IMG/VR virus record: IMGVR_UViG_3300033148_001468
Location: 1-22,560 of that record
Direction: 5' to 3' (one strand)
DNA: 22,560 nt
Origin: a virus
Each line of letters begins with the position of its first letter. Position 1 is the first letter of the stretch. Shown piece by piece: positions 548 through 20,839 of the stretch. Below the pieces are notes generated by a model. That model searched no databases, had not been told where the DNA came from, and worked only from the letters and a program-made list of their open reading frames with translations. A program made the position numbers and the translations under genes.

Positions 548-563
548 CAGCATAGGAGGGGGT

Positions 564-875: not shown

Positions 876-882
876 CAATCTA

Positions 883-1631: not shown

Positions 1632-1984
1632 TGAACTCAAATAAATTCCGCAAAGAGTTAATAAAAATCATGCCAGGTTACAAATGGACGGTTCACCGGA
1701 ATAATTTCGGTTCATATGATTATCTTGATGCAACCGGAATCCAAACAGCAGGCTTCAATCGGTTGTCAACTGTGTATGTGGTACGGCGTAGAAAAGATGC
1801 TGACGTTACATATGGAGTAAAAAGTTCCGGGTTTGGATTAAATAGTCCATGGCTATCCAAGTATACAGACAGCACCCTCGCCCAAGCATTGCGGGGGTTG
1901 CAGGATCATTATGAATCTATGGCTAAAACATATAGTAGCCATGCAGCTTATTTGCAGGGTGCGAGGAAACTAAAAGAGGACTAA
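1631..1984 (+). CDS. Hypothetical early phage protein (117 aa)
   Basis: Translation should start at the ATG at 1631, which overlaps the previous stop as TAATG and has GGGGGAAATA just upstream. An ATG at 1619 lies in frame but inside the preceding gene. The sequence is basic at the N-terminus (NKFRKELIKIMPGYKWTVH), with a Tyr/Val/Arg-rich middle (STVYVVRRRKDADVTYGVKS) and a helical C-terminus ending in KLKED. Proteins of this appearance are, to my recollection, common unannotated members of phage early operons. I cannot assign a function. There is no membrane segment and no metal-binding cluster. It lies directly upstream of the integrase. Confidence 0.65.
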   Translation: MNSNKFRKELIKIMPGYKWTVHRNNFGSYDYLDATGIQTAGFNRLSTVYVVRRRKDADVTYGVKSSGFGLNSPWLSKYTDSTLAQALRGLQDHYESMAKTYSSHAAYLQGARKLKED

Positions 1985-2049
1985 ATTTGACAACCGCCCC
2001 ACAAAAAATATATGATACCTCTCTAAGTCAAAATCAAGGGGGGGATTAT

Positions 2050-3189
2050 ATGTCAGGCACTATCAGAACATATCAAAAGTGTCCACGGTGCGGTGCGCCT
2101 TTTCCAAGCTCAAAGGGCGGTTTCCCAATTATCTGTAATCCTTGCATGACCCAGCCGACTAAATATTATATTGACGTTTGGTGGAAAGGTAGAAATCATC
2201 AAATTTATCATGATTCTGCTGGAAAAACAATTCATACATGGAACCAAGCTATTTCTGTAATTGGTGAAATTCGATCCCGTATTGAGGCACATAGGGCCAA
2301 TAGAGGTTTTTTTGATCCACAAGCATACAAAAAACAATCTACAACATCATTCAAAGCATTTTGGAGCAGATACCTTGAAGGATACAGCGGAGCTACATTA
2401 GAAAAGGTATCAACCATTGGTAAACACCACTTGGTTTATTTTAATGGTTTTCAAATGCGTGATATAACCGCATGGAATATTGATGAATGGTGGCGTGAAC
2501 TTCAACAGAAAGGACTGTCCGCAAGATACTGCAATGATATTCAGACCTGGCTCCGGTCATTTTTTAAGAACGCTTATGAGTTGGATATTATAGAAAAAAT
2601 TCCAAGGTTTCCAGATATTTTAAAATACATGAAGCAAGAAATTAAATATCTTACGCTTAAAGAACAAGTTTTGATTTTATCCAAAATACCCAAACACGAT
2701 AAACCTATCTTTGAGTTTTTATTCTTAACAGGCGTTCGGGTTAATGAGGCATGTGCACTTCAACGGTCAGAAATTGATATTAAACATAATATAGTGTGGA
2801 TAAAAAAAACCGTCAAGCGTGACGGTACTATAGGTGTTGTAAAAAACAAAAAGCCCCGAAAAATTCCATATCATATCGTCAAGCATTGTTTTAATTCTGA
2901 CATAATAGGGATTGATTTTATGTTTATCAATAAATGGGGCAGGCGTTACACCGATGATTATTTAAGAGATACAGCATATAAAGCATGTGATGTTGTGGGA
3001 ATTGAACGTATGCCATTGAAAAACATGACCCGTCATTCCTGGGGAATGAAGATGGTTCAAAAAGGATATGATGCATGGCGAATTAAAGAGGCTTATGGTC
3101 ATAGCACTATAAAAATGTCAGAAAATTATATCGCCATGCAGGACGATAATATAATGGAAATGTATGAAGGAAGTGATTTCCAAACATAG
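2050..3189 (+). CDS. int: Tyrosine-type site-specific integrase
   Basis: This is a 379-aa phage integrase that would recombine attP with a chromosomal attB and, with a directionality factor, excise the prophage. The ATG at 2050 is preferred because CAAGGGGGGGAT lies just upstream. A TTG at 1987 would add 21 residues. Counting from 2050, a zinc-ribbon-like N-terminus (C11, C14, C29, C32) precedes an arm-binding-like region. A core-binding SAM-like domain follows at about 95-185 and a catalytic domain at about 195-370. Catalytic residues are R230 in TGVRVNEAC, a Lys near 265 (VVKNKKPRKIP), R328 in NMTRHSW, H351 in YGHST and the nucleophile Y360 in MSENYIA. The first His of the usual HxxR box is Asn (N325), a tolerated variation in the family. 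A likely attP core lies 80 bp downstream. Confidence 0.93.
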   Translation: MSGTIRTYQKCPRCGAPFPSSKGGFPIICNPCMTQPTKYYIDVWWKGRNHQIYHDSAGKTIHTWNQAISVIGEIRSRIEAHRANRGFFDPQAYKKQSTTSFKAFWSRYLEGYSGATLEKVSTIGKHHLVYFNGFQMRDITAWNIDEWWRELQQKGLSARYCNDIQTWLRSFFKNAYELDIIEKIPRFPDILKYMKQEIKYLTLKEQVLILSKIPKHDKPIFEFLFLTGVRVNEACALQRSEIDIKHNIVWIKKTVKRDGTIGVVKNKKPRKIPYHIVKHCFNSDIIGIDFMFINKWGRRYTDDYLRDTAYKACDVVGIERMPLKNMTRHSWGMKMVQKGYDAWRIKEAYGHSTIKMSENYIAMQDDNIMEMYEGSDFQT

Positions 3190-3192
3190 TGA

Positions 3193-3204
3193 AACCATAT
3201 GAAA
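3193..3204 (+). repeat. AACCAYATGRAA-like repeat, left copy (possible Int arm site)
   Basis: AACCATATGAAA lies directly after the integrase stop codon. It differs by two bases from AACCACATGGAA at 3407-3418 and 4668-4679. Its position to the left of the tRNA-like core, with further copies to the right, is what arm-type binding sites of a tyrosine integrase would look like. That role is inference. Confidence 0.4.
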
Positions 3205-3269
3205 AGCAAATTTAAAGTGTTCATAACTATTTTACATTATTATAGATATATAACCCAACGGGAAGACTG

Positions 3270-3286
3270 CTACCTTCACACGGTAG
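3270..3286 (+). other. Probable attP core (tRNA-Val CAC anticodon-arm identity)
   Basis: The 17 bases form a perfect 5-bp stem (CTACC/GGTAG) around a 7-base loop TTCACAC. This is exactly the geometry of a tRNA anticodon arm: pyrimidine at 32, U33, anticodon CAC (Val) and A37. No D-arm, T-arm or acceptor stem is present around it, so it is not a tRNA gene but a fragment shared with one. Tyrosine integrases commonly use the anticodon arm of a tRNA gene as attB, and this fragment sits 80 bp downstream of the integrase gene. It is therefore the likely crossover core. The opposite strand would read as a His(GUG) loop but with an unusual G at position 32. Confidence 0.6.
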
Positions 3287-3330
3287 AACTTTCAGCCCAA
3301 GACTACAAACAATCAATCAGTTTAATAATA

Positions 3331-3374
3331 ACGGATGCCTATGCTGTTTTATAGGTGTCCGTTTTTTGTTTTTT
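3331..3374 (+). terminator. Rho-independent terminator after the integrase
   Basis: A 12-bp stem (3331-3342 with 3351-3362, fully paired with two G-U wobbles) encloses an 8-base loop and is followed by GTTTTTTGTTTTTT. This is a textbook intrinsic terminator reading rightwards. It would end transcripts of the early operon and integrase before the HNH/methyltransferase pair, which then needs its own promoter or readthrough. Confidence 0.85.
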
Positions 3375-3395
3375 AGGGGTCAAAAATAGGCTAAA

Positions 3396-3424
3396 AACCA
3401 CATGACAACCACATGGAAACCATA
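3396..3424 (+). repeat. AACCACATG direct repeats, 11-bp period (possible Int arm sites)
   Basis: AACCACATG occurs at 3396-3404 and again at 3407-3415, and a degenerate third copy (AACCATA) starts at 3418. The starts are 11 bp apart, about one helical turn, so bound proteins would sit on one DNA face. A single copy lies to the left of the tRNA-like core (3193-3204), and another 11-bp-spaced pair lies at 4657-4679. Integrase arm sites or operator half-sites are both possible. Confidence 0.5.
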
Positions 3425-3426
3425 AT

Positions 3427-3461
3427 AAAAAGCCCGAAAGGTGGTGGCTCACCAATCGGGC
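3427..3461 (-). terminator. Minus-strand terminator-like hairpin
   Basis: GCCCGA (3432-3437) pairs with TCGGGC (3456-3461), and an inner TGGTG/CACCA stem (3442-3446, 3450-3454) closes a 3-base loop. Read on the minus strand, the hairpin is followed by TTTTTATTATGG, the form of an intrinsic terminator. No minus-strand gene is called nearby. It may stop late or antisense transcription from crossing the integrase, or it may act as a structured 5' leader of the HNH gene on the plus strand. Confidence 0.6.
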
Positions 3462-3492
3462 GGGTGTCAATCAAAACCATAGGAGATTATGA

Positions 3493-3906
3493 ATGACAGA
3501 ATTAAGCGTAGCACCAAAAGGAACGTATGACAACCGAAAAGAATATATGCAGGTTTATCAGCTTGAATGGGTTAAAAAACGTAGGGAAAAATATCTAAAA
3601 AAATATGGACCTTGTTATTTTTGTGAATCATCCGATAATCTGGAAATACACCATGTTGATCCATCCGAAAAAGAAAGCAACCATATTTTTAGTTGGAAAC
3701 CGGAAAGGATAGAAGCAGAATTAGCCAAATGTATTATTCTTTGCCATAATTGCCATGTAAAAATGCACACGCTTATGAAGCGTAAACCATTTAAACACGG
3801 TACATATTATACATACCATGTTTATAAATGCCGATGTAAAGAATGTCGAAAAGCTAACGCCGATTATGCAATGGAACTTAAAAGGCGCAAGGCGGTATCG
3901 GCATGA
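3493..3906 (+). CDS. HNH endonuclease with extra C-terminal zinc motif
   Basis: The ATG at 3493 has AGGAG at 3481-3485, seven bases away. The 137-aa product carries an HNH core: CYFC, then LEIHHVDP with the catalytic His pair, and CIILCHNCHVKMH with the second Zn pair and final His. A separate C-terminal segment, HGTYYTYHVYKCRCKECRKA followed by Asn-Ala, forms a CRCxxCR cluster of a type seen appended to phage homing-type nucleases. The gene overlaps the downstream DNA methyltransferase by four bases (ATGA), so the two are co-translated. A nuclease-methylase pair suggests a self-contained modification or small restriction-like unit, but no specificity can be read from the sequence. Confidence 0.88.
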   Translation: MTELSVAPKGTYDNRKEYMQVYQLEWVKKRREKYLKKYGPCYFCESSDNLEIHHVDPSEKESNHIFSWKPERIEAELAKCIILCHNCHVKMHTLMKRKPFKHGTYYTYHVYKCRCKECRKANADYAMELKRRKAVSA

Positions 3907-4604
3907 AACCATACTTTGAAACGAAATTAGGCAAGCTGTATCACGGTAATTGTCTTGAGATAATGCCAAGATTGCATTCTGTTGATGCCTTGATTACAGA
4001 TCCGCCTTTTGCCTTCACCGGAGGTATATCAGCAGGGAATAGCTCTAATATATCAGATCAGTTTTTTCGACATTGGTGGAAAGAAGTAGCACAAAAAATT
4101 CATAAGTCTTTAAGGTCTGAAGCAAGTGGTTTTATTTGGTGTGATTGGAAAACCGCTAAAATACTATCTGATGGTTTTGAGCCCCAACTTCAAACCTATG
4201 ATTTTTTTAGGATATCGCAAATGATATTTCATCATAGAGAAATGCCGGGCATGGGAAAACCTTTTAGGGCAAGCATAGACATGATTGCATATTTAAGAGG
4301 GCCAAAACATAAAAACCCACCTATATCAGCAGACACTTTAAATTTCATTTCGGAATATTGGTATTACGGCAAACACGACCATCATCCTGCAGAGAAATCC
4401 CCTTCCATCTGCGAACGGCTTTTAAATTGGTGCTCTACTGAACAACAAACCGTCATTGACCCTTTTTTCGGTTCCGGCACAACCGCCATAGCCTGTGAAC
4501 GTCTAAACAGAAAATGGATAGGAATAGAGATTGAAGAAAAGTATTGTGAGATAAGCGCAAAACGTATCGAGCAAGAAACAAGGCAATTAAAACTATTCAC
4601 ATAG
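3903..4604 (+). CDS. DNA methyltransferase (N6-adenine or N4-cytosine, beta-class order)
   Basis: This 233-aa S-adenosylmethionine-dependent methylase has motif IV DPPF at residues 33-36, a central target-recognition region, a motif-X-like HPAEKS at 161-166 and motif I DPFFGSGTT at 186-194. IV before I is the beta-class arrangement. The (D/N)PP(Y/F) motif marks transfer to an exocyclic amino group, so the product is N6-methyladenine or N4-methylcytosine. IEIEEKYCEIS after motif I is typical of the SAM-binding fold. Its start overlaps the HNH nuclease stop. Possible roles are protection of phage DNA from host restriction, or self-modification paired with the adjacent HNH nuclease. The length is compact but has all the visible motifs. 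Confidence 0.92.
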   Translation: MKPYFETKLGKLYHGNCLEIMPRLHSVDALITDPPFAFTGGISAGNSSNISDQFFRHWWKEVAQKIHKSLRSEASGFIWCDWKTAKILSDGFEPQLQTYDFFRISQMIFHHREMPGMGKPFRASIDMIAYLRGPKHKNPPISADTLNFISEYWYYGKHDHHPAEKSPSICERLLNWCSTEQQTVIDPFFGSGTTAIACERLNRKWIGIEIEEKYCEISAKRIEQETRQLKLFT

Positions 4605-4656
4605 GACATTTACACTATTTGTGTTCCTGCCCGTTTTTGTATTTATGAGACACTTG

Positions 4657-4679
4657 ATACACATGGAAACCACATGGAA
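4657..4679 (+). repeat. CACATGGAA direct repeat pair, 11-bp period
   Basis: CACATGGAA at 4660-4668 is repeated at 4671-4679 with 11-bp spacing. The 12-mer AACCACATGGAA (4668-4679) is identical to one at 3407-3418 on the other side of the HNH/methylase pair. The pair lies in the 87-bp gap before the next gene, close to its ribosome binding site, so it could be an operator as well as a recombination-related repeat. Confidence 0.5.
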
Positions 4680-4691
4680 TAGAGGGATGGG

Positions 4692-4952
4692 ATGAGAAAG
4701 AAATTTAAGCCAGTAACGATAGAAGAGGTCGAAGCCGTTTGGGGCAACGCAAATTTTGGGCCAAATCTAAACAACAACAAAATGAATGTAATTAAAGGGG
4801 CTCTGCTCAAATGGGCCAGCGAATTTAGCACCGGATATACGGCATGGAGGTTACTCGTTGATCTTGGGTTAATGACCGAGAAAAAACGGATTACATGGCG
4901 TGGAAGAAGGCAATTGTGGGAGTTTTTTAGTAAGGGACTTTTGAGTCTTTAA
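4692..4952 (+). CDS. Small basic early phage protein (86 aa)
   Basis: The ATG at 4692 follows GAGGGATGGG. The product is basic and Trp-rich, with ITWRGRRQLWEFFSKGLL near the C-terminus and a helical middle (KGALLKWASEFSTGYTAWRL). This could be a small DNA-binding or regulatory fold. I see no classical helix-turn-helix that I would defend. It follows the methylase after an 87-bp gap with repeats, so it may head a separate transcription unit with the next two genes. No family is recognised. Confidence 0.6.
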   Translation: MRKKFKPVTIEEVEAVWGNANFGPNLNNNKMNVIKGALLKWASEFSTGYTAWRLLVDLGLMTEKKRITWRGRRQLWEFFSKGLLSL

Positions 4953-4966
4953 CAGGGAGGTATGGG

Positions 4967-5245
4967 ATGCAACATAGATGTCCGAGTTGCGAAAGATTTT
5001 ACAATATTGATATAACAGACCTGGACTTGCCGGAAGCTAGCCGGACCCAGGCAAATTTCTGGAAAGCTAAATATTTTGAAATGGCAAAGGAAGTCGTGAA
5101 GACTAACAAAGGAATCCGGCGGTTGCGTAGGAGATTAGATAATGTAAGGAATACGTCATATCCATATTGTCATGCATCATGTTCTCCGGGTGATACCCAC
5201 TGCTGGCAATGTGGAAAACCATTGGATGAGGAGGTAGCGGAATGA
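4967..5245 (+). CDS. Zinc-ribbon-containing phage protein (92 aa)
   Basis: A CPSC pair near the N-terminus (residues 5-8) and a second cluster near the C-terminus (CHASC and CWQCGKPL, about 68-86) suggest one zinc ribbon or two half ribbons. A basic helical stretch rich in Arg (RRLRRRLDNVR) separates them, and a helix with Arg and Lys could contact nucleic acid. The ATG at 4967 has AGGGAGG upstream. The stop overlaps the next start as ATGA. The function is not recognised. A transcription- or DNA-associated adaptor is possible but not shown. Confidence 0.65.
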   Translation: MQHRCPSCERFYNIDITDLDLPEASRTQANFWKAKYFEMAKEVVKTNKGIRRLRRRLDNVRNTSYPYCHASCSPGDTHCWQCGKPLDEEVAE

Positions 5246-5661
5246 AAGAACAAGAATATATAAACGTATCGGATCTTGCGAGAATATCAGCAATATTAGA
5301 GATTCTTAGAAATATTGTACCAGCCAATTCGGCAGTAATAGATAGAAACAACCTTACAAAAATTTTTCAAATCTTAGTTGATTGGCAAGAAAGATTGACT
5401 GATGATATTTATGTGGGGCCACCGGAGGTAATGGATAAAAAAATAATGGCTGGATTTGCTTGGAAAGTAACATCTAAAAAATGGTTGTGCAAAAAAGATT
5501 TAAAAACGGTCCCTGATAATAGAGTGGTTTTCACCGTTGGTAAAATCTATGATGAGGTTCAGCGCATTTCTGGTTTGGTTATTTTAATTGATGATGATAA
5601 AGAAGGGCATGGCATATTTTTGGAGTTAATGGAAAATCACTTTGAGGAGCCACCGGAGTAG
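5242..5661 (+). CDS. Hypothetical early phage protein (139 aa)
   Basis: The start overlaps the stop of the zinc-ribbon gene by four bases, with GAGGAGG immediately upstream. The N-terminal 55 residues look helical (SDLARISAILEILRNI). The C-terminal half is beta-rich (NRVVFTVGKIYDEVQRISGL followed by VILIDDD) and ends in an acidic tail with two prolines. A small SH3-like C-terminal fold is possible but not assignable by eye. It is the last plus-strand gene before the convergent late block, and the tandem 25-bp repeats begin 11 bp after its stop. Confidence 0.65.
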   Translation: MKEQEYINVSDLARISAILEILRNIVPANSAVIDRNNLTKIFQILVDWQERLTDDIYVGPPEVMDKKIMAGFAWKVTSKKWLCKKDLKTVPDNRVVFTVGKIYDEVQRISGLVILIDDDKEGHGIFLELMENHFEEPPE

Positions 5662-5672: not shown

Positions 5673-5722
5673 ACGGCCAAGGATGACATGCCGTTAAACG
5701 GCCAAGGATGACATGCCGTTAA
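5673..5722. repeat. Two perfect tandem 25-bp repeats at the convergent junction
   Basis: The 25-bp unit at 5673-5697 is repeated without change at 5698-5722. Each unit contains GGCC near its start and GCCGTT near its end. AACGGC and GCCGTT are perfect inverted repeats of each other around a 12-base spacer, so each unit can form a 6-bp hairpin (the first copy is preceded by T instead of A). They fill the gap between the last early gene and the end of the late operon. No U-tract follows on either strand. The role is unknown: termination aid, protein-binding site or recombination site. Confidence 0.8.
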
Positions 5723-7974: not shown

Positions 7975-8826
7975 TTAAACTCCATTTACCTTAGCTATAT
8001 CAGCCACAGCAATTCCATTTATCTTAGCAGGGTTTGTAACTCCATTTATTTTACCTGTCCAGCCACCTGCTGCTGCATACCCAAGCAATGTTTCATCAAA
8101 TATTGGCCTAAACATCTCATAATTATCCCGGTAAAGCTGCTCAATTTGAGAATGTCCTAAGGCTCGGTTATAAATACGACCAAAGGCTAAATTACCATTA
8201 AAATTTTCGAAATAAGATGAGGAAGAACAATGATCGCCAAAAACTATTCGATCTTCAGTATGGATTGTATTAGCATCGCTATCGCCGGAAGATGTAAGAA
8301 CACCATTTTTCCATATCTCTAAACCACCAGTTATACTTTTTCCCTTACATACTCCTACTATATGATGCCATCCAGCTCCTAATTCAGCAGCTTCTACAAT
8401 ATTATTTGCCGTTCCACCAGCTTGTTTAAATAATACAAGCTGATTTGAAGATCCAGTACCTAATAACAAGTTGCCATCAGAAGCAGTGGTAGAATCACAA
8501 AAACCGAAAATCACATTTCTATAGACGGAAGCAGCAATATACATTATTACTTCAAGAGTTACTGGACTATCTGCTAAAAGAGGGGATCTGCTCGTAGCAA
8601 TTGCTGTTGTCTCACTAAAATATAAAGCAGATCCCCTGGTCATGGTTGACCAAATCGGAAAAGAGTTATAAGTGTCAGCATTAATCTTATACTTGCTTAC
8701 ATCAAATAGCTTAGTCCCACCCATCTCATTCATCAACCAACATCCTGCTAAGCACTTTGAGAGAGGATGAGACGGGTCTGGAAGTGTTCCAAGTATTGGT
8801 TTAATCTGTGCAATGCTAAAACTCAA
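7975..8826 (-). CDS. LamG/concanavalin-like lectin tail protein
   Basis: The body is a LamG (Laminin_G_3-type) beta-sandwich. PLSKCLAGCWLMNEMGGTKL opens the domain, and SPVTLEVIMYIA, AGWHHIVGVCKGKS, GGLEIWKNGVL and FGRIYNRALGHSQIEQLYRD are its typical strands and closing helix. Such domains on phage tails bind cell-surface glycans, so a receptor-binding role is likely. The extreme C-terminus is a short tail with three Asn-Gly repeats (KINGV, KINGI, KVNGV). Start choice: TTG at 8826 has AAGAGGA seven bases upstream and an 11-bp overlap with the upstream gene. An ATG at 8856 would add ten residues but has no ribosome binding site and overlaps by 41 bp. Confidence 0.85.
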   Translation of the reverse strand: MSFSIAQIKPILGTLPDPSHPLSKCLAGCWLMNEMGGTKLFDVSKYKINADTYNSFPIWSTMTRGSALYFSETTAIATSRSPLLADSPVTLEVIMYIAASVYRNVIFGFCDSTTASDGNLLLGTGSSNQLVLFKQAGGTANNIVEAAELGAGWHHIVGVCKGKSITGGLEIWKNGVLTSSGDSDANTIHTEDRIVFGDHCSSSSYFENFNGNLAFGRIYNRALGHSQIEQLYRDNYEMFRPIFDETLLGYAAAGGWTGKINGVTNPAKINGIAVADIAKVNGV

Positions 8827-9253
8827 AGTTTTTTCCTCTTGATTCGTCTTCTGCATCAGTTGAGAGTGCTAATACAGCCACAAGCCTCAAATCAGCAAGG
8901 CAATCAAAGTCGGCTTGATCAGAAGGCCAATTGCTATTATCATCAGATTCCTCAAGAAAAAGGTATCCTGTTCCATCTGTGGAATTAACATCAGCAATGA
9001 TTTCAAAGTAACCTTTGACTCCCCAATATAGATTAGAGGTATTGTCAACAACAGATCCTTCCACTTCTCCGGTATTGACAATGGTTTCGCCCGAACCAAA
9101 ACCAAGGTCTTCAGTTATAGGGGTTCCATAACTGAGTTCCCCAGATACTAATTTCCATGGACTCATTCTAATTGCTATTCTTGCTGCATTATTATAAGTT
9201 AAAGTCTGGTCGGCATTCCAATACATTCTTAAACGCCAGTACTTAGCTAACAT
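8816..9253 (-). CDS. Tail/fibre-region structural protein (145 aa)
   Basis: The product opens with basic-aromatic LAKYWRLRMYWNADQTLTY, then is acidic and beta-rich with many Gly and Asp (LGFGSGETIVNTGEVEGSV), and ends in an Asp/Glu-rich tail. It has no enzyme motif. A TAGGAGATAAATT site precedes the ATG at 9253. It lies in a chain of small tail genes directly upstream of the LamG lectin and overlaps its start, so it is probably a virion part such as a fibre connector. I recognise the type as phage structural but not the family. Confidence 0.7.
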   Translation of the reverse strand: MLAKYWRLRMYWNADQTLTYNNAARIAIRMSPWKLVSGELSYGTPITEDLGFGSGETIVNTGEVEGSVVDNTSNLYWGVKGYFEIIADVNSTDGTGYLFLEESDDNSNWPSDQADFDCLADLRLVAVLALSTDAEDESRGKNFEF

Positions 9254-12162: not shown

Positions 12163-15100
12163 TCATTTTATGCCCATACTTTTTAGGCCCAGGTTGTTTT
12201 TTTTCTTTTGTAGTGTCGATAAATAATTTCGCACCAAATTTCGCCTTGCCTTTAAGCCCGACTTGTTGCGTATTTTGGTAAGTATTTTAATCCGCGACTC
12301 CACGGTTCTCGCGGTCCAGTTTGGTTGACTGATTCGGCGTTTAAAGTCATATTTAAGTTCTCGGCCAAAATCTTTACAATATTCTCTGTAAATATCATCA
12401 GGCAATTTTACATCTTTGCTTCTGTACGATACTGTTTGTCTCGGCAAACCCGGATAAACTTCAAGGTTCGCAAGCTCCTTTTCAACAGGATCATCGGTTT
12501 CTTTCGACCACTTAAAGGGGAGCCATTGTTGAAACACTTTCCCTGGGATAACCGCTTCTTCGCCCCAAACAGTCAGCTTGGCCGGCATCTTTCCGGACAG
12601 GCCCGGAATGGTTTGACTGAACGCTTTCAACCACTGATGACCTTCTCTCGGCTTTGCCTCACCTTCGGTTATAACTTCAACGGATCGATTGATAGACCGC
12701 CAGAAGGATGAATAGGGAACCCATGAAGCGAACCATCGGGCAACCGCACCCTTTCGGCCACCGTATTTGTCAAGAGCTTGTTGAAGACCACTGAGGTATG
12801 AACCGTCAATTACATTCTCTCTCATTCGATCCGCAAAATGACCGAAGTGTTCCGTTGCCGTCTTTTCATCCCCGGCGTCCATGGCCGTCTTCATTTCTTC
12901 AAATGCCAAATACGCTCCTGCAATAACGGTATTGAATGGTTCAAATCTTCTATACTGAACCCAAGTTCCACCATCGACTTTATTGGTTTCCTTGTTGTAA
13001 GTTCCACCTATTTTCATTGACCACGGCTTCTTTCCTTGCCTATGCCATGCTTCCCTTTCGTTCTTATTTTCCGGCATTGGTCCTGTAATTCTGCCCTCAC
13101 CGACTTTATTGATGACATAGAACGCCATAACCGTACCCATAATCTGCTTTGCTGCCAACTTGGAAGTCGGCATACCCCTGCCCATACCCCTTGAAAGCCC
13201 TTCCTTGATAATCCCGAGTCCGGGCGTAAGTTCAACACCCCTTTTCGTCAAGTTGGAAATTGTGTTTACAAAAGGCAAAACCGTTACCCTTAATACGGGA
13301 CCGACAACAGGAACATTCCTTGATGCAATAACGTATTGTGTAAACGGATCGGGCTCATCCATAAAGGTACTGTTAAGGGCTTTCTTTCTGGCCGCTTCGT
13401 GCATCTCTTCGGTTACGTTGCTCCGCATTTTTTCTTCAAACGCAGTACGTTCTTTGCCCTTCAAACCCTTCTCGTTTGACATGCGCCTTGCAATTGAATT
13501 TATTTCACCGTCATACGCAATGGCATTACCCCATACATCCATTGCTCTTAACGCTCTTGTTGGAACATCAATGAACGGAGCTATCTTTCGTAAGACTTTA
13601 TTCGGGCTCCGGCGCCAAGCACCCATTGAAAAATCCAATTCCTGAAACCATTTGTCTTCAAATTTTCGTGCTTTGGCTGTCCTAAGAATTTCACCGGCAA
13701 CGACCTTGCCCTTTTTAAACCCCGATTTGTATCCGGCAAGCATTGGTAAAACTTCATTCATATAAAATTGTCTTTGCTTACCCGTAATTCCACAATAAAC
13801 TTTATCAACAGCCCCGGTTACAAGCCTTTGAGGTACTTGAAATGCCGTCCATAAAGTATTGCCAACCACATTGACAACATGAGTCGGCGGCCCTGAAAGA
13901 ATTGCGTTGTACCAATACTCAAGAAAGTATTCTGATATTTTCGGATCTCTCAAATTCTTAATAAATTGCTGCACCTGAACCGGATCTTCAAGGTTGAGCT
14001 TTTTCAATTCTTCAAACTGTCTCGGGTTCAAGTCTTTCTTTAACTCCGTCAATGCCTTGCCTAAATTGTTAATCGCCACTTCCTTTTTATGGATGTTCAA
14101 CATCCGACCCACTTCAGAAGATGTATCGCTCATAACATGACCGATATTGTCACGGTAAGAATCCAAAGCGTTCTTCATGGCAACCGGATCATCCATTTGA
14201 GCTATCTGATGCAAGCCTTCAATGGCGTTCACATGAATTTGACGCATAGCTTGAACCTTCTCTGCCGTAAGCGGTAACTGGCCTTTCTTGGCTCTCTGAA
14301 ATAGGGAAGCCCTTGTCTTAACGTCCTGCTTCCAGGTCTGTGTCTTTTTGGGTTTGGAACTTAAAAGAGTCGCTTCAAACGCTTTGTAATCTTCCGGTAT
14401 ATCCTGCTTCTCGACATTGATCGACCTTGCGTACTTGGGAATATCGTCGGCATATTTGTGAAGAAGATAGGCAACCTTCGGCTTGGGAATATCGTCGGCA
14501 TATTTGTGAAGAAGATAGGCAACCTTCGGATCGTATTTTTTGTCAAGCAGATATTTCTCAATGGTTTTGCCACGTCTTTTAGCTTCGGCCTTGATGCCCT
14601 CAAGATCGCCCTTCAAACGAATAATAGCAGCTTCTTGCTCGGGTGTGAGCTTGCCGAGTTCACCGATTGCGCCCTTTTGTCCAAGTGCGGTGTTGATGTC
14701 TTTGGCTATTTCTTTGGGGTTGCGGAATCCCTTCTCCACCCCCGCCCCCTCGGAAGCTACCTTTGTTCCTTCGGGGGAGGGAGGGGGCTTACCTGCGGTG
14801 GCTTTTTTAAACTTCTTATTCATATATTCCATCAAAGCAATATAACCACGTTCTGGACCTTCAAGACCTGATACTTTACCTGGCAAATCTTCAGTGTGCC
14901 ACTTGGCAATATCAATCCAGTCTTTAGCAATTCCCTTTTTTCCTGTTTTTGGATCTACCCACAATGTACCACCAGGTTTCATACCAGTAAGACCTGAAAG
15001 TTGATTCGTAAATTTTTTCTGATCATTGCCGCCTAATTCAAAATATGTGTCATCCCAAAATTTATCAGCCGTTTTTGATGGGGACTGTCCGGCACTTTCC

Positions 15101-17250
15101 ATATCATCCAGTATTCCTTGACCTTGGGCTTCAGCAATATCCTTTTTAATTTGTTTGTTAAGAAAATCATTATATTTATCAGCGGCTTCCTTCTTCCCCT
15201 TCAACTCAGGATAATCAGGATGTGAATCTATCTTGCCTTCGTTAATGGCTTGTTGGACTAAATACTTATGGTCGCCCTTGTTTCTTGAATACCATTCGCT
15301 GCCAGTTATTTCAAAAGCCTGTGTTCTGCCACCAGAGGGTAGCCCTTTTTCTTTTAACGGTGCCCTTTCGCCATTAAAATAAACCTCATCGGCCTTGGAA
15401 TATTCCTCAAAGCTCATCTCATGTGGCTCTTTCGCCTTACCCTCTTTGGAAAGTTCGGGCTTTTTAGGCTCCACCGCTTTGTCAGGCTTTGATTCTGCGG
15501 CTTTCTCAGGTTTTGCGACTTCAGGCACGGGTTTAGGTTTTGGCTCGACCACGGGCTTCTTGGGCTCCGCAGGAACTTTCTCAAGAGGTTTAAAAGTTCC
15601 GTCAAGTTTGGCCGCTGCGTCTGATCGTACCTGGTCTAATGTCGATTTTACTTGCTCTCTTGGGGTAAGTCCGGCTTCAGGTGGAACGTCTTTAAAAACC
15701 TCTTCAAGTTCTGCCTGTGCCTTTTGTTTCTCAACCAATTCAGCAGGCGGTTCTGCCTTTAACGATTCTTCTTTTCTTGCAAGAGTATCCAATGGTCTTT
15801 GTGGTGTTGCGGCTCTTTCTTTGGCTATTCTTTGTTTTATTTCATCTTTAGCATGGTTAACAACTTCAGTACGTTGCTCATCGGTAAGGGCTTCCATCTT
15901 TCTGTCAAGCCTTGCCTTAGCTTCAGCCTTTACCTTACCCCCTAAACGATGAATAAAACTGAACATAAAAAGTTCCGAAGCAAGTTCAGACAAGTATCCT
16001 GCCCTCGGTCCTACGATTTCAGTTATTCCTTCACCCGCCATACGAGCAGGCGTTAAAGCGACCTCAAAACCTTTGCCTATTATTTCACTCGCACCTTTTC
16101 CGGCCTCTGTCCTTGGTTGATACCCAAACGTTTCGCCTATTTGTTGTTCTGTTTCCCTTGCTTCCTCTGCTGTATCACCGGTTAGTATCCTTGAAACACC
16201 TGCTATCTTTTGGGCAGGCCATAATGCAATCCCATTGGCTAAAGAAAGCATAGTTTCAGGAGTTGCCTTTACACCTTCCCAAACTTCATTCAGGGTAGGC
16301 TTAATCCAACCTTCGTAATGCCCTTCGGGTTCTTCAACGGAAACCGGTTGTGGTGCCTTTTGTTCATTATCCCATGCAATCTCATCAGCCTTGATAGCTT
16401 GATCCCATTTAATTTGTGTTTGATCTATTGGTGATTCTGACTTATTTTGGTTAGGCAAATGCAAAACCGAATCAGGCTCCCTATTTTTGAAATAGTCCGT
16501 TAATTTCTCTGGACTATGCTGAGTTAAATTAAAAGGAGATGCATAAAAATGCCACTTTCCGTTTTCTTTTTTCCATGCACCGCCCTCTTTATCCGGTGTG
16601 CTGTATTTGCTGTCAGTCGAAAATGTAATATGATTTTGAAGTTTAAACTCATCCGTTAAGTGCTGACCTTTGGACTGATCAGGAGGCCCATACTTTTTGA
16701 CGTATCCTTCTAAATCATATCCAGAAGATTTTTGCTTTTTGAATTCTGCTTGAAGTTGTTGAGAGTTGAGCGTTCTGTAATCAGGCATTGCGGTTTTTTT
16801 GATATTTATTGATTGCGATCCCTTATTCTTATTATACCTACCCTGAACCTTTTCAATATAACCCTGTGTCTCAGGAAACGGCGGTATGCCACCATGCTTT
16901 TTAACATTCCCCGGCCCTGCATTGTATCTGGCAAGCGCAAGAGGAATATCTCCATTTGTGGCTTTAAGCTGTTTGGCAAGATACTTTGTACCGCCCATGA
17001 TGTTTTGTCTTGGGTCAGTGGAATCCACAACACCCATAGCCTTTGCGGTATCCGGCATAAGTTGCATCAAGCCGATTGCGCCCTTGGAAGACTTGGCCGA
17101 TGACTTGCCGCTACTCTCAATGGCTATCATGGCCTTTATTAACTCGGGCTCAACATTATGAGTCTTTGACGCTTCGGCAATAAAAGGCTCGTAATCCGGC
17201 TTTGACGTAGGAGTATCATCCCACTTTATTTGGCTTTCATTAATCTGCAT
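12163..17250 (-). CDS. Giant virion/ejection protein with N-terminal lytic transglycosylase (gp16-like, polyvalent)
   Basis: This 1695-aa protein starts with an SLT-family lytic transglycosylase domain (about 15-130): catalytic E45 in AIESSGKS, GLMQLMP (60-66) and RYNAGPGNV (108-116). A conserved phage module follows at about 178-266 (DLEGYVKKYGPP to DSVLHLP). Then come helices with small-residue-rich hydrophobic stretches (about 310-440), a Lys/Pro/Glu-rich linker (about 545-610), further modules, and a long C-terminal region (about 1010-1600). That region has PTHVVNVVGNTLWTA and YVIASRNVPVVGPVLRVTVL, which resemble the LPD38-type domain of polyvalent proteins. The transglycosylase would open peptidoglycan locally during DNA entry, as in T7 gp16. 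A perfect 16-residue tandem repeat lies at 908-939. Its ATG at 17250 overlaps the upstream gene by 11 bp and has only a weak ribosome binding site. Confidence 0.88.
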   Translation of the reverse strand: MQINESQIKWDDTPTSKPDYEPFIAEASKTHNVEPELIKAMIAIESSGKSSAKSSKGAIGLMQLMPDTAKAMGVVDSTDPRQNIMGGTKYLAKQLKATNGDIPLALARYNAGPGNVKKHGGIPPFPETQGYIEKVQGRYNKNKGSQSINIKKTAMPDYRTLNSQQLQAEFKKQKSSGYDLEGYVKKYGPPDQSKGQHLTDEFKLQNHITFSTDSKYSTPDKEGGAWKKENGKWHFYASPFNLTQHSPEKLTDYFKNREPDSVLHLPNQNKSESPIDQTQIKWDQAIKADEIAWDNEQKAPQPVSVEEPEGHYEGWIKPTLNEVWEGVKATPETMLSLANGIALWPAQKIAGVSRILTGDTAEEARETEQQIGETFGYQPRTEAGKGASEIIGKGFEVALTPARMAGEGITEIVGPRAGYLSELASELFMFSFIHRLGGKVKAEAKARLDRKMEALTDEQRTEVVNHAKDEIKQRIAKERAATPQRPLDTLARKEESLKAEPPAELVEKQKAQAELEEVFKDVPPEAGLTPREQVKSTLDQVRSDAAAKLDGTFKPLEKVPAEPKKPVVEPKPKPVPEVAKPEKAAESKPDKAVEPKKPELSKEGKAKEPHEMSFEEYSKADEVYFNGERAPLKEKGLPSGGRTQAFEITGSEWYSRNKGDHKYLVQQAINEGKIDSHPDYPELKGKKEAADKYNDFLNKQIKKDIAEAQGQGILDDMESAGQSPSKTADKFWDDTYFELGGNDQKKFTNQLSGLTGMKPGGTLWVDPKTGKKGIAKDWIDIAKWHTEDLPGKVSGLEGPERGYIALMEYMNKKFKKATAGKPPPSPEGTKVASEGAGVEKGFRNPKEIAKDINTALGQKGAIGELGKLTPEQEAAIIRLKGDLEGIKAEAKRRGKTIEKYLLDKKYDPKVAYLLHKYADDIPKPKVAYLLHKYADDIPKYARSINVEKQDIPEDYKAFEATLLSSKPKKTQTWKQDVKTRASLFQRAKKGQLPLTAEKVQAMRQIHVNAIEGLHQIAQMDDPVAMKNALDSYRDNIGHVMSDTSSEVGRMLNIHKKEVAINNLGKALTELKKDLNPRQFEELKKLNLEDPVQVQQFIKNLRDPKISEYFLEYWYNAILSGPPTHVVNVVGNTLWTAFQVPQRLVTGAVDKVYCGITGKQRQFYMNEVLPMLAGYKSGFKKGKVVAGEILRTAKARKFEDKWFQELDFSMGAWRRSPNKVLRKIAPFIDVPTRALRAMDVWGNAIAYDGEINSIARRMSNEKGLKGKERTAFEEKMRSNVTEEMHEAARKKALNSTFMDEPDPFTQYVIASRNVPVVGPVLRVTVLPFVNTISNLTKRGVELTPGLGIIKEGLSRGMGRGMPTSKLAAKQIMGTVMAFYVINKVGEGRITGPMPENKNEREAWHRQGKKPWSMKIGGTYNKETNKVDGGTWVQYRRFEPFNTVIAGAYLAFEEMKTAMDAGDEKTATEHFGHFADRMRENVIDGSYLSGLQQALDKYGGRKGAVARWFASWVPYSSFWRSINRSVEVITEGEAKPREGHQWLKAFSQTIPGLSGKMPAKLTVWGEEAVIPGKVFQQWLPFKWSKETDDPVEKELANLEVYPGLPRQTVSYRSKDVKLPDDIYREYCKDFGRELKYDFKRRISQPNWTARTVESRIKILTKIRNKSGLKARRNLVRNYLSTLQKKKNNLGLKSMGIK
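14434..14529. repeat. Perfect 48-bp tandem duplication inside the giant protein gene
   Basis: The 48-bp unit at 14434-14481 is repeated identically at 14482-14529. It is in frame and gives the 16 residues PKVAYLLHKYADDIPK twice (residues 908-939). Identity at every base, including synonymous positions, suggests recent slippage or unequal exchange, or possibly an assembly error. Confidence 0.93.
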
Positions 17251-18292
17251 ATTTTATTGATCCATCGCTATATTTAACAACCTTGCGACCATTATAAGTT
17301 CCGGTTTGAGTTATTGTTTTCTCTGATTTTCCCGTTTTCCCTGAATACCATATCGGAAGTTCACCCTTGTTAATTCGATTCATATCTTTACTCATTTTGG
17401 TAGCTATATCATTGTACTCTCGTTCATATTTGCCAGGATCATCTTTAGGTCCAGGTTTGATATATCCCATATCATCAAGTAAGTGCCTTGACATTTCGTG
17501 ATAGAATGAACGGGTATCATCAATCTGTTTACCTCTGTCTTGTTCATACTGCCGTATATCCTGAACTGATGTTTTGTTCTTTTCGGTTTCTTCCATCTTG
17601 TTATATTTTTTAATCATTTCTGTGGAAGACATTTTATCTTTATTTTCCGAATAAAACGCCTCCCATTTATTCGGTATTTCAGGTGTTTCAGGTGTTTCGG
17701 CTTTTATAGCTTGTGCAGTCTTTAACCTTCTATCCAACGCCTTGTCGGGAGCCTCATAATCCCTTGCAGACTTCTCACCATAAAGCTTTGAGGCTATCTG
17801 TGCCATATTACCGCCCAACCGGCTTTGCCATGTATCCCGGCCTCCAATCGCTTGACCTGCAGAACCAAGTATAGTTGCCAATAAATAGGGATCCATTTTG
17901 TTTCCGGTAGGCATGGCAGTCCGTCCGGCTTCGGGAGAATTTACGGCACCCATATTAAAATCCGTTCCCGGTTGCTGACCTGGAATTGTTCCTGTTGACT
18001 GACCTTTGAACAAAGAAGCAAGTTGCATAATATTACCCATTGCAGAACTTCCGGTATCAGTTTGTCCACTTGGAGCACTTGGGGCAGTCGGTTGAAGCGG
18101 TTTCACATTAGGAACCCTTTTTTCCCCGGGAGTCCCAGGACCTTTAGTTGGATCATAACCAACTTCAGGGTTTGATCTGAGCGTATCTCCCCTAAGTCGG
18201 CTTAATGTATTTGGACCTTGAAGATTGTCTCTGGATGCTTCAAAATTAAATTGATTTCTTTTTAATTTGTGTAACGCATTTTCTAACGCCAT
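17240..18292 (-). CDS. Virion/ejection-associated protein (350 aa, gp15 position)
   Basis: The start is the ATG at 18292, just behind AAGGAGAATATT; a further-upstream in-frame ATG lies inside the previous gene. The N-terminus (ALENALHKLKRNQFNFEASR) is followed by a low-complexity Pro/Ser/Thr/Gly stretch to about residue 120. The second half has charged helices with a coiled-coil look. It ends with GTYNGRKVVKYSDGSIKYAD, a segment I remember from phage virion proteins. The gene lies between a Gly-rich C-terminal protein and the transglycosylase, the place T7 gp15 occupies, although gp15 is twice as long. Internal-core or ejection protein is the best guess. Confidence 0.68.
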   Translation of the reverse strand: MALENALHKLKRNQFNFEASRDNLQGPNTLSRLRGDTLRSNPEVGYDPTKGPGTPGEKRVPNVKPLQPTAPSAPSGQTDTGSSAMGNIMQLASLFKGQSTGTIPGQQPGTDFNMGAVNSPEAGRTAMPTGNKMDPYLLATILGSAGQAIGGRDTWQSRLGGNMAQIASKLYGEKSARDYEAPDKALDRRLKTAQAIKAETPETPEIPNKWEAFYSENKDKMSSTEMIKKYNKMEETEKNKTSVQDIRQYEQDRGKQIDDTRSFYHEMSRHLLDDMGYIKPGPKDDPGKYEREYNDIATKMSKDMNRINKGELPIWYSGKTGKSEKTITQTGTYNGRKVVKYSDGSIKYAD

Positions 18293-18302
18293 AATATTCT
18301 CC

Positions 18303-19280
18303 TTAAAACAAACTTCCTGCAAGACCTAAAACACCACCGACCACAGCGCCAGTAGGCCCCGCAATCATTGCTCCCGCCGCCGCACCGCTTAAAGCTCCTG
18401 AAACCGCATTGCCAAACTTTGAACTTCCGGCAACTTCAGAAGTGGTTTTTGTAGCACCCTGTAATGCGCCTAACGCAGCCCGTTCCCAATCAAGCACCGT
18501 AAACGGCCATAAATCATGCTTGACGGCCATGTTATAATTGAAATCGTCAACGTCCATTTTGACCGAATAATAGAGCTTCATAACCTCGGCGTAAGTCATT
18601 ATGACGCCCTTATTCCATTCAAGGTGAGTTTGCCATCTTTGCGTAGCAACCGGAATCAAGCGGTATTTCAATTCAGATCTGAACTTTTCAAGAGCTTTAA
18701 CTTTGGTGTCCCTCGGAATTGCTCTTGCGACCACAAACGTTGAAGACATGACGGAATTGATATCTCTCATCCCCAATTCTATCGCGGTGACGGCCTCAAC
18801 AACATCATCCTCGATGAGATCGGATTCAGCGGCCACCAGGTCATTGACTTCGGGCGCGTTGACCGTATCTTCAAATATCTGTGAATATAACGTGTCAACA
18901 TCCAGCCCAGCCATGAATTTGCCGAACATATCGTACATGGTCGGAAAAGACGAAATGGTATAGCCAGTTCCGAAAAAGGCCAGCTCAACCTCAATATTAT
19001 CAAAATTTATAAATGGCGAATCGTGTGTTACAATATCAGCATCAGCAATACCCTGGGCAGATTGCCTGTCGTATATATCATCCACCAATCTACCAAACCA
19101 ACCCAACACACCGCCAGTACCTCTTAGTTCAATGGTTCCGCTGCCACCACTTCCAATAAGTGCTTGTCTATGAGCTTGGACCGTATTTAAAAATTCTGCA
19201 TGATGATCTTCAATATATGGAGCATACCTTACGGTCATTTCTGAATCACCGCCGCCACCACCGCTGCTTTTACTGCCCAT
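18303..19280 (-). CDS. Virion protein with Gly/Ala-rich hydrophobic C-terminus (325 aa, gp14 position)
   Basis: The 325-aa protein opens with a Gly/Ser-rich stretch (MGSKSSGGGGGDSEMTVRYA) and has a mostly helical middle. It ends in an Ala/Gly-rich hydrophobic tail (SGALSGAAAGAMIAGPTGAV, then VGGVLGLAGSLF). Such a tail could insert in a membrane, as expected for a phage ejection protein that forms a channel. The gene order GNAT, this gene, 350-aa gene, transglycosylase parallels T7 genes 13-16. AAGGAGTATAGCAC precedes the ATG at 19280. Sequence similarity to T7 gp14 is not claimed, only the position and the tail. Confidence 0.7.
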   Translation of the reverse strand: MGSKSSGGGGGDSEMTVRYAPYIEDHHAEFLNTVQAHRQALIGSGGSGTIELRGTGGVLGWFGRLVDDIYDRQSAQGIADADIVTHDSPFINFDNIEVELAFFGTGYTISSFPTMYDMFGKFMAGLDVDTLYSQIFEDTVNAPEVNDLVAAESDLIEDDVVEAVTAIELGMRDINSVMSSTFVVARAIPRDTKVKALEKFRSELKYRLIPVATQRWQTHLEWNKGVIMTYAEVMKLYYSVKMDVDDFNYNMAVKHDLWPFTVLDWERAALGALQGATKTTSEVAGSSKFGNAVSGALSGAAAGAMIAGPTGAVVGGVLGLAGSLF

Positions 19281-19283
19281 GTG

Positions 19284-19748
19284 CTATACTCCTTTCAAAT
19301 CGTACACAAACGATGTGTAACTTTGCTTGAACCCAAGGGCTTTGTCCATCTCCATCATTTGTTTATTCTTTGTTGCCAATATTATGTTGTCGCATTGTTC
19401 TTTTACGGCGAATTCTTTCAGCAATTCAAAACCTTGTTGCCATTCTTCAAAAGAAACGTGCCGATAAGAAAACGTGACGTAAATATTCAGATTTTTATGG
19501 TTGAACCTTTTGTCGATCTCAAGCATGGTGATTACTACGGCGATAACATTGCGCTCATCGTCCAGCCGAAACCAACATTGAGCTTTGTCGGAAAGAAGTT
19601 TGTGCAGCAACCATATCAATCCGGCCTTTAAATCCCTTTCGTCAAGTTCAACCGATTTTGACGTAACGTATTTTATAAGTTCCCAATATTTTACAATTTG
19701 TGAAAATGGCGGTTTGCTGTGTGTCGATAATAATTTTATAGTTTTCAA
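19284..19748 (-). CDS. GNAT-fold acetyltransferase-like virion protein (gp13-like)
   Basis: The 154-aa protein has GNAT-like secondary structure: a strand pair around CWFRLDDERNVIAVVIT, a central NIYVTFSYRHV strand, a helix with EWQQGFELLKEFAVKEQ, then CDNIILATKN and MDKALGFKQSYTSFVYDL, the classic C-terminal 'A-L-GF' signature. The R/QxxGxG/A cofactor loop is not visible, so it may be a degenerate acetyltransferase. T7 gp13, often annotated as acetyltransferase-like, heads the internal-core genes. The same position here, just upstream of the 325-aa and 350-aa proteins and the transglycosylase, supports a comparable virion assembly role. Its ATG overlaps the stop of the tail hub gene (ATGA). 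Confidence 0.75.
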   Translation of the reverse strand: MKTIKLLSTHSKPPFSQIVKYWELIKYVTSKSVELDERDLKAGLIWLLHKLLSDKAQCWFRLDDERNVIAVVITMLEIDKRFNHKNLNIYVTFSYRHVSFEEWQQGFELLKEFAVKEQCDNIILATKNKQMMEMDKALGFKQSYTSFVYDLKGV

Positions 19749-20839
19749 TGTGCGTGCCTTATCCCATTGATTTTTAAATAATCGATCTCAAAGTACTCAT
19801 ATTCAAGCGCCTTTGCCCTGAACATGAATTCCCTTCCCATGGCAGTAATAAATACTGACCCTCTTTCCGTAACGTTGTACCAGGGAGTCGATGTAAACGA
19901 CCCTTTAAAATCCCTGCGATAATATATTGCCGCCTGTAATGTTCCTTCAAGATTGGTTCCAAATTCAAGCTCAAAAACTGTTTTATTTTTTCTTGTGCCT
20001 AAATCGTGAATGTCAGTACATATCTCAAAGGCCGGTGTTGTGATCGCCGCCGGCGCCGTAGCGTACAATGTCCCGCCCTGTGAGGAAATCCCCGTAATAT
20101 TGACCGGACCTTCACCAAGGCTTTTATCAATCGGAGAATACACAAACCCATAGGTGCCGTCGCAAATGTAAAGAAGGTTTGCTTCAACATCGAAGGATAA
20201 AACCGGATCGGTTAGGACTGACAAGTATTCGGAATAGTCTAATTTTTCCAAACCGTCTGCCAGACTGATAAGTTGATCCTTGTTGTCGATAAAGAAGTGA
20301 ATCTCCTCAGTCCCGGCAACGGCCAATTTACTTTTAAGCCCTACTCGATAAACCGTTTGCATCCCCCATGCTTTTCCATGGGGAGTAAGAAAAGTTACAC
20401 CGTTTGAGCCGTAGGCAACGTTTTTACCCCCAAGCTTTTTGACGTTATAAAGCCATCCCTTCCAATCCATCGGCCTTTCACCGGCAACATTGCTTTTATC
20501 AATGGTAAAATCCATTTGGCCAATCTTAGACCATATGACGAAGTTGGATTTTAGGTTTTCTAAGAGTAAATCGGCATCACCAGAAAAATACGCTACCCCG
20601 GAGGCACCACTTTTTATAGTTCCCCATATAGGCGTTCCAGATCCCGTAAATCCGGCTGTGCCTGTTGCTGAGAAATCTACAAATGGTTTTTCACCAGACC
20701 CGGAAAAATATGCGCATGCTGGATCACACCTAAATGTAATATCAAGGTCGTGGTCTATTTCTGCGGCGGGATGTTGCGTTGGCACACCCTTGCCGACAAA
20801 ATAGGCCGTTCCTGGACCTGCATCAATTAACGTTGCCAT
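19745..20839 (-). CDS. Tail hub/nozzle-like structural protein (364 aa)
   Basis: The N-terminal 90 residues carry four copies of an AYFxGxG-like motif (TAYFVGKG near 11-18, AYFSGSG near 43-49, AGFTGSG near 62-68, AYFSGDAD near 83-90). The rest is beta-rich with Gly-turns (NVAYGSNGVTFLTPHGKAWG, NLLYICDGTYGFVYSP). It ends with REFMFRAKALEYEYFEIDYL, then KINGIRHAH, the sort of ending I associate with podoviral tail hub or stabiliser proteins. Its position before the GNAT gene matches T7 gp12 (nozzle), though it is about half that length. No enzyme motif is seen. Confidence 0.72.
   Translation of the reverse strand: MATLIDAGPGTAYFVGKGVPTQHPAAEIDHDLDITFRCDPACAYFSGSGEKPFVDFSATGTAGFTGSGTPIWGTIKSGASGVAYFSGDADLLLENLKSNFVIWSKIGQMDFTIDKSNVAGERPMDWKGWLYNVKKLGGKNVAYGSNGVTFLTPHGKAWGMQTVYRVGLKSKLAVAGTEEIHFFIDNKDQLISLADGLEKLDYSEYLSVLTDPVLSFDVEANLLYICDGTYGFVYSPIDKSLGEGPVNITGISSQGGTLYATAPAAITTPAFEICTDIHDLGTRKNKTVFELEFGTNLEGTLQAAIYYRRDFKGSFTSTPWYNVTERGSVFITAMGREFMFRAKALEYEYFEIDYLKINGIRHAH

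Follow-up and report, generated by a model that had tools for sequence, protein, structure and literature searches.

Ejection proteins are among the least understood parts of the virion, and the examples known come from few model phages. In T7, gp12, gp13, gp14, gp15 and gp16 are encoded in that order, and gp16 (1318 amino acids, aa) starts with a transglycosylase whose catalytic Glu is residue 37 (PMC8954989). In the temperate phage P22 the order is nozzle-needle-14-7-20-16, and gp16 is described as a 609-aa protein without a transglycosylase domain (PMC8954989). Table 1 of PMC8954989, which covers 14 phages, gives 181-240 aa for gp14-like, 431-982 aa for gp15-like and 609-1337 aa for gp16-like proteins. 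Phage N4 releases a giant multidomain protein, vRNAP (gp50), with two channel-forming ejection proteins, gp51-gp52 (PMC12633501, a preprint). Multidomain polyvalent proteins with lysozyme domains have been proposed to be injected (PMC5512222), and mosaic ejection or internal virion proteins have already been described (PMC8954989; PMC10386132). Here we describe the IMG/VR virus record IMGVR_UViG_3300033148_001468, a stretch of 22,560 bases classed as linear and without end repeats (G+C 41.6%), which we analyzed at its full length and refer to as the window. Its minus-strand region at 12163-19748, taken together with the gene next to it, is very probably a podophage ejection (internal virion protein) cassette, and the last gene of this cassette encodes a giant protein that appears to be a mosaic.

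A predicted tail nozzle gene precedes the probable ejection genes

An earlier reading of this DNA, the original prediction, recognized four open reading frames (ORFs) at 12163-19748; they lie on the minus strand, and their positions and lengths agree with the ORF coordinates. They encode a GNAT-like protein of 154 aa, known from weak profile matches (19284..19748; the position of T7 gp13 and P22 gp14), a helical protein of 325 aa with a C-terminal Gly-zipper, a putative outer-membrane pore component (18303..19280; the position of T7 gp14 and P22 gp7), a gp15-position protein of 360 aa from a TTG start or 350 aa from an internal ATG at 18292 (17240..18322), and, as final cassette gene in the gp16 position, a giant of 1695 aa (12163..17250). 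Directly upstream, outside the range that the original prediction covered, lies a minus-strand gene for a predicted podophage tail nozzle, a 364-aa protein in the position of T7 gp12 and P22 gp10 (19745..20839). Neighboring genes of the cassette, the nozzle gene included, are separated by 3 bp or overlap by 4-20 bp. The nozzle gene directly preceding the block provides the strongest evidence for a podophage injection cassette, and we hold with good confidence that these genes form a late injection cassette from a short-tailed phage, comprising nozzle, GNAT-like protein, first and second ejection proteins and mosaic giant.

The nozzle assignment comes largely from structure prediction. The 364-aa protein has no Pfam or PHROG match at E<=1, and a single-sequence tblastn search (E<=1) of 50,697 phage records returned no match. 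Its AF2 model, made with a 70-row alignment (mean pLDDT 80.0), contains a confident beta-propeller at residues 100-364. When the model was compared with the PDB using Foldseek, each of the top 19 matches came from a phage tail or portal-tail entry, among them Pa223 (E 4.5e-11), VP1 (4.9e-11), P22 (1.2e-6) and T7 (5.6e-5), with further matches to Pan3, SU10, crAss001, Pam1, A4, Sf6, GP4, E1004, Kp7 and Kp9. The chain concerned in the P22 entry 8eap is gp10-gp26, those of VP1 carry the name nozzle, and we read the remaining matched chains as nozzles from their PDB entries. VIA placed Pa223 at the top (Z 14.5, root-mean-square deviation (rmsd) 3.8, 270 residues aligned), with Pan3 (Z 14.3) and P22 gp10 (8eap, Z 14.0) close behind, the three spanning rmsd 3.5-3.8 over 244-270 residues; the best non-phage propeller scored Z 11.2 over 159 residues. 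Independently of the model, the sequence profile matched the VP1 nozzle chains in the PDB (E 4.4e-4). Residues 1-92 are mostly modeled at low confidence, and the ORF, with provisional start codons, varies widely in length among sibling loci (353-820 aa).

The order of the cassette is conserved across related loci

Related loci were collected by scans with the 325-aa protein, which gave 82: the best 80 of 97 relatives in IMG/VR, and two loci (L013 and L014) in contigs of WOR-3 metagenome-assembled genomes (MAGs). The 325-aa gene is thus present in the relatives by construction, but the nozzle and GNAT-like genes are not. All 80 loci with at least 2.5 kb of upstream sequence, the window being one of them, have the order nozzle, GNAT-like, 325-aa; the median spacing between these genes is -3 and +5 bp. 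As some of the loci are near-duplicates, they do not amount to 80 independent events; nonetheless, an order kept in every one of them is not due to chance. Downstream, a same-strand ORF of at least 1000 aa is present in 56 of the 57 loci with at least 6 kb of sequence on that side, the exception being L076. For family-level comparisons, alignments A4, A5 and A6 used rows from 75/83, 75/81 and 70/81 loci, near-duplicates and truncated or over-extended ORFs having been dropped, along with L043, which was left out of A6 by oversight.

Sequence searches of the 50,697 phage records turned up no close relative of this lineage: the window had no megablast match, and the 325-aa protein had none by single-sequence tblastn (E<=0.01). 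Tandem duplication of the 325-aa-type gene was seen in 14 loci (L004, L015-L020, L022, L025-L027, L029, L036 and L055); a second copy in L021, just 154 aa long and at the contig end, was not counted.

The giant appears to be a mosaic

The giant begins with an SLT transglycosylase domain at aa 24-120 (16891..17181, minus strand; Pfam PF01464, E 5.6e-26), as had been predicted, and aa 18-172 match phrog_342 (E 1.5e-22). The catalytic-type Glu of this domain is aa 45; it is followed at 62 and 108 by what we take to be SLT-type motifs. The prediction that the giant is about 380 residues longer than T7 gp16 also holds, the difference being 377 aa, but the LPD38-like C-terminal region attributed to it was not recovered: hmmscan gave no match to LPD38 (PF18857) in the giant at E<=1. 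LPD38 was likewise not found in a scan of 10 records, in which the control was silent as well. SLT is in fact the sole Pfam domain of the window giant at E<=1e-3, which leaves it outside the polyvalent class as defined by two or more unrelated effector domains in a single chain; the giant of locus L002, with SLT and ddrB-ParB, falls within that class.

Different segments of the giant match different relatives. The SLT part is 62% identical to L013, aa 308-612 are 32% identical to L065, and a module at aa 684-816 (14803..15201, minus strand) shares 47% identity with the giant of sibling L004 (blastp E 2.8e-30). The C-terminal module, at aa 1088-1629 (12364..13989, minus strand), is of the phrog_6651 type, the giant's C-terminus matching this 'internal virion protein' family at E 5.5e-21. 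It matches internal virion protein D of Desulfovibrio phage ProddE and Roseobacter phage CRP-804, the internal virion protein of Methylophilales phage MEP301 plus an adjoining hypothetical protein, and a hypothetical protein of Podoviridae sp. ctQWt234. An iterative search with this module stopped at these four reference phages and reached 0/51 sibling giants. Consistent with this, phrog_6651 was positive in the window, ProddE, CRP-804, MEP301 and ctQWt234 and absent from T7, P22 and 64 sibling records (covering 64 of the 82 sibling loci); one of the two scans behind this count had a silent control, which the positives of the other make good. A search of IMG/VR with the C-terminal 695 aa of the window giant found no relative. 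The giant also contains a perfect 48-bp tandem duplication (16 aa; 14434..14529, minus strand), apparently recent.

These relations suggest that the giant combines N-terminal and middle parts common to its siblings with a C-terminal module of another phage lineage. Exchange of the C-terminus with that lineage is the simplest account: had this end been inherited vertically, it should be more like the siblings than like remote phages.

The last position of the cassette holds different giants

Across the lineage, the lengths of the 52 complete giants (that of the window among them) lie between 1176 and 2583 aa. The window's gp14-, gp15- and gp16-like slots hold proteins of 325, 350 and 1695 aa, and the longest sibling giant reaches 2583 aa. 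A Pfam scan (E<=1e-3) of 51 of the 52 giants (L039 duplicates L038) detected SLT in 11, SLT_2 in 1, phage lysozyme in 1, HHH_8 in 2 and SHOCT in 1, together with domains of the polyvalent type: LPD23 in 9, N6/N4 methylase in 3, ART-PolyVal in 2 and ddrB-ParB in 1. Unlike in N4, an RNA polymerase domain was found in 0/51. The final 700 residues of the giants fall into 13 clusters at E 1e-5, and that of the window stands alone. At the profile level (cluster profiles omit L058 and L039), cluster c12 joins c4b (probability 97), c2c (74) and c2b (42), and the window group joins none, its best value being 3.6.

To compare the giants with the rest of the cassette, we binned the 986 pairs of loci present in all three alignments and aligned their giants by blastp (E<1e-5). 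Where the 325-aa proteins of a pair are 20-60% identical, the mean aligned fraction of the giant was 0.09-0.14; it rose only above 60% identity, to 0.40 (22 pairs) and 0.58 (3 pairs). Even at 50-60% identity, 118/152 pairs had <10% of the giant aligned. Between the window and L002, identity is 64% for the 325-aa protein, 60% for the nozzle and 42% for the GNAT-like protein, yet only 5% of the giant aligns. In these comparisons, the giants vary largely independently of the cassette.

What this lineage adds to the mosaicism already described is a conserved injection backbone with different giants in its last slot; among the open-licence PMC papers listed for polyvalent giants in podophage ejection cassettes, which were the polyvalent-protein paper and general phage papers, we found nothing on this lineage. 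Tentatively, and with somewhat less than even confidence, we propose that the last position is a general exchange slot, in which a conserved injection machine delivers interchangeable giants that join channel or muralytic modules to differing effector cargo (methylase, ADP-ribosyltransferase, ParB-like nuclease or unknown domains), and that phages re-equip themselves through exchange of the giant, or of its ends, between lineages. If the giants are injected, the lineage offers many natural variants for working out what in a gp16-position protein is channel and what is cargo.

The cassette resembles T7 and P22 by position

The cassette can be compared with several known systems. Its order is like that of T7, the window giant shares an N-terminal transglycosylase with gp16, and the predicted nozzle fold is like that of T7; other parts have no detectable homology to T7. 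With P22, a temperate phage, it shares the predicted nozzle fold, the order of the ejection genes and a Gly-rich C-terminus like that of gp7, but in P22 a needle gene separates the nozzle from the ejection genes, and gp16 lacks a transglycosylase. In ctQWt234 (MW202801, Manatee Spring), an annotated phage stabilization protein is followed by two genes, an acetyltransferase, small proteins and a giant with the same C-terminal module as the window's, but of 1121 aa; this phage also encodes an integrase and, as endolysin, an L-alanyl-D-glutamate peptidase. Neither the acetyltransferase nor the small proteins of ctQWt234 gave a convincing profile match to the GNAT-like or 325-aa families (best probability 42, over 30 columns). 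ProddE, CRP-804 and MEP301 are alike in the phrog_6651 module; ProddE and CRP-804 are classed as Autographiviridae, and the 325-aa profile finds no match in the proteins at their gp14 position. Finally, the sibling giants recall N4 vRNAP, a giant multidomain protein, and also the polyvalent proteins, whose domains some of them carry; the RNA polymerase domain of N4 vRNAP was not found in them.

We compared profiles of the nozzle, GNAT-like protein, 325-aa protein and giant C-terminus with T7 gp12-gp16 and P22 gp10, gp14, gp7, gp20 and gp16. Among these 40 pairs there was one match, between the 325-aa protein and P22 gp7. No profile match was found to T7 gp12, gp13, gp14 or the gp16 C-terminus; gp14 gave an hhalign probability of 0.1, the T7 gp14 family being narrow (15 sequences) and the T7 families as a whole holding only 11-15 sequences. 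The same test also missed the nozzle relation (probability 0.2 with P22 gp10 and 0.1 with T7 gp12); since that relation is visible in structure, the profile test is too insensitive to exclude remote homology. A T7-type RNA polymerase (PF00940) was found in 0/44 lineage records, of which the window and some others are fragments (T7 control, E 9.9e-110); for the window taken singly the result is not decisive. Of the ejection gene order originally predicted, the cassette itself thus stands, upheld by the upstream nozzle, the conserved order, the SLT domain and phrog_6651, but a specific relationship to T7 is not borne out by the profiles or the RNA polymerase scan. The label 'T7' is only positional: the cassette resembles both T7 and P22 by position, and we assign it to neither.

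Several cassette proteins are assigned with less certainty

A number of observations weigh against reading the region as an ejection cassette. The cassette is known here from genes alone, and among the 20 of the window's 33 listed proteins that were scanned, none was identified as capsid, portal or terminase, for which reason we take the window to be a fragment. The C-terminal module of the giant has no convincing match to T7 gp16 (probability 1.7), and the 'gp16' label consequently rests on position and on the annotations of others. Part of the variability among the giants could stem from fast divergence instead of exchange. The 325-aa and 350-aa proteins have no sequence match to T7 gp14 or gp15, and of T7 gp14-gp16 only the N-terminal transglycosylase of gp16 was matched. 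The GNAT assignment of the 154-aa protein is a weak one in sequence terms: the top three PDB matches of the family profile are acetyltransferases (E 0.018-0.097), and Pfam Acetyltransf_1 is found in 1/75 family members (E 0.0074) and not in the window protein; the same 75 members include three unrelated single-member Pfam matches, two of them with lower E. Phage_T7_Gp13 (PF11090), which detects T7 (E 1.7e-49) and CRP-804 (E 4.7e-5), has no window match at E<=10.

Similar uncertainty surrounds the 325-aa protein. The match of its family to P22 gp7 (profile-profile probability 95.2, E 2.6e-8) covers only 42 C-terminal residues; it corresponds to the Gly-rich tail, could arise by convergence or composition, and is only suggestive. 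Pfam P22_gp7 matches the window protein at E 4.7e-4 with a score of 20.5, the cut-off being 28. PHROG matches of the family are mostly to tape-measure proteins (phrog_167 in 15/75 members, best E 6.7e-6; phrog_794 in 10), and the internal virion protein model phrog_6056 is matched by just 2/75 (best E 0.008). The AF2 model (pLDDT 80.5) is all alpha and has no significant Foldseek match in the PDB (best E 1.7); Foldseek and VIA listed helical and coiled-coil proteins, none of them an ejection protein, though a shared fold may exist outside these lists. In BFVD, the best match is an uncharacterized phage protein (E 1.3e-3), and 'prophage DNA injection protein' (E 0.2) and 'internal virion protein' (E 1.2) appear among the non-significant rows. 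The predicted Gly-rich tail is present: the model ends in helices at 288-307 and 309-324, and the C-terminus is Gly-zipper-like (Pfam YMGG-type Gly-zipper, E 0.011, under the family cut-off).

An iterative search with the gp15-position protein reached 21/86 mid-position cassette ORFs, itself included, and 0/22 reference proteins, among them T7 gp15. Mid-position ORFs total 334-1318 aa in 50 of the 52 complete-giant loci and <500 aa in 43 of those 50; in the other two, L024 and L030, our filter found no mid-position ORF. The original prediction had taken the half-length of this protein to suggest that gp15 functions moved into the giant. However, a short gp15-position protein is usual both in the lineage and in P22-like phages (431-499 aa, including Epsilon15, in Table 1 of PMC8954989), so its length is no evidence of such a transfer. 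A motif common to T7 gp15 and the 350-aa protein was also considered, but we take it as chance because a related pattern occurs in just 3/65 mid-position proteins >200 aa, window included. The alignment profile A9 yielded nothing useful against the PDB.

Alternative explanations of the cassette and its giant

Could this instead be a temperate relative of T7 with a genuine T7-like ejection block of the Autographiviridae type? The order is that of T7 12-13-14-15-16, and the C-terminal module occurs in internal virion protein D of the Autographiviridae ProddE and CRP-804. We nonetheless consider this quite unlikely, as the profiles match neither T7 gp12-gp14 nor the gp16 C-terminus, the transglycosylase is of a generic kind (phrog_342), the nozzle model scores Pa223, VP1 and P22 above T7, and T7-type RNA polymerase is absent from the records scanned. 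A different possibility, compatible with an injection cassette, is that the giant is mainly a polyvalent effector injected against the host, for anti-restriction or takeover, while the other two proteins make the channel. The LPD23, DNA methylase, ART-PolyVal and ddrB-ParB domains of sibling giants point in this direction, as do the proposed precedent of N4 vRNAP (PMC12633501, a preprint) and the proposal that lysozyme-domain polyvalent proteins are injected (PMC5512222). With SLT alone in the window giant and an internal virion protein module at its C-terminus, we regard this as possible, though less likely than not.

The variability of the giants might also reflect one fast-evolving homologous family without module exchange. 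Ejection proteins are known to diverge quickly (PMC8954989), and the joining of c12 with c4b, c2c and c2b shows that some sibling C-termini remain connected at the profile level. For the window this explanation is contradicted at the C-terminus: that end is related to four remote phages and to none of the 51 siblings, although one sibling has a 325-aa protein 64% identical to the window's, and the best sibling-cluster profile is no match to it. Overall we judge the explanation unlikely. Least probable of all, and in our view very improbable, is an assembly chimera of two phage genomes, which would account together for the lone integrase (see below) and the mosaic giant in a 22.6-kb linear record. 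Against this, a single unbroken frame of 1695 codons encloses the C-terminal module, and different siblings are matched by separate segments of the giant, so that the mosaicism does not come down to one join. An injection cassette with a mosaic giant remains our preferred reading.

A proposed route of injection

From the gene order, the predicted nozzle fold, the SLT domain and the mosaic sequence relations, a route of injection can be proposed by analogy with T7, P22 and N4 (PMC8954989; PMC12633501, a preprint), in which packaging, ejection, channel formation and cleavage of peptidoglycan by the giant are all inferred. Three internal proteins would be packed in the head near the portal and, once the nozzle opens, would exit in sequence. 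The first ejection protein (325 aa) may insert into the outer membrane, and the second (350 aa) could form a periplasmic tube. The N-terminal transglycosylase of the giant would then open the peptidoglycan, while its C-terminus might reach the inner membrane or cytoplasm and help to bring the DNA in.

The integrase and other features of the window

The window encodes a tyrosine integrase of 400 aa (1987..3189, plus strand; Pfam E 5.8e-20), confirming the integrase noted in the original prediction, and is alone in this among the 44 lineage records tested. The window phage may be capable of lysogeny. The tension once seen between an integrase and a T7-like order dissolves: P22 has such an order, ctQWt234 has a comparable one together with an integrase, and LUZ100 is a published T7-like phage with an integrase (PMC10134795); injection genes in such an order are ordinary in temperate phages. 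Downstream of the integrase, a sequence resembling the anticodon arm of tRNA-Val(CAC) folds as a stem-loop (3253..3300, plus strand; read by eye), with 11-bp repeats around it at 3192, 3395 and 3474. ARAGORN and Rfam found no tRNA at 3253-3300. The tRNA-Val-like sequence and the repeats would fit a candidate attP core. WOR-3 was considered as a host and set aside: the tRNA-Val-like pattern occurs in 0/147 genomes of the phylum at <=1 mismatch, and misbinning of the two MAG contigs is possible.

Plus-strand genes at 143-5661 include HNH, integrase and N6/N4 DNA methylase genes, and minus-strand late genes occupy 22521-5730, the two blocks converging at ~5.7 kb. A perfect 25-bp tandem repeat (5673-5722) lies at this junction. 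A Laminin-G/concanavalin-like protein is encoded at 7975-8856 (Pfam E 8.3e-12); it has short imperfect C-terminal repeats and is possibly a candidate for a receptor-binding role.

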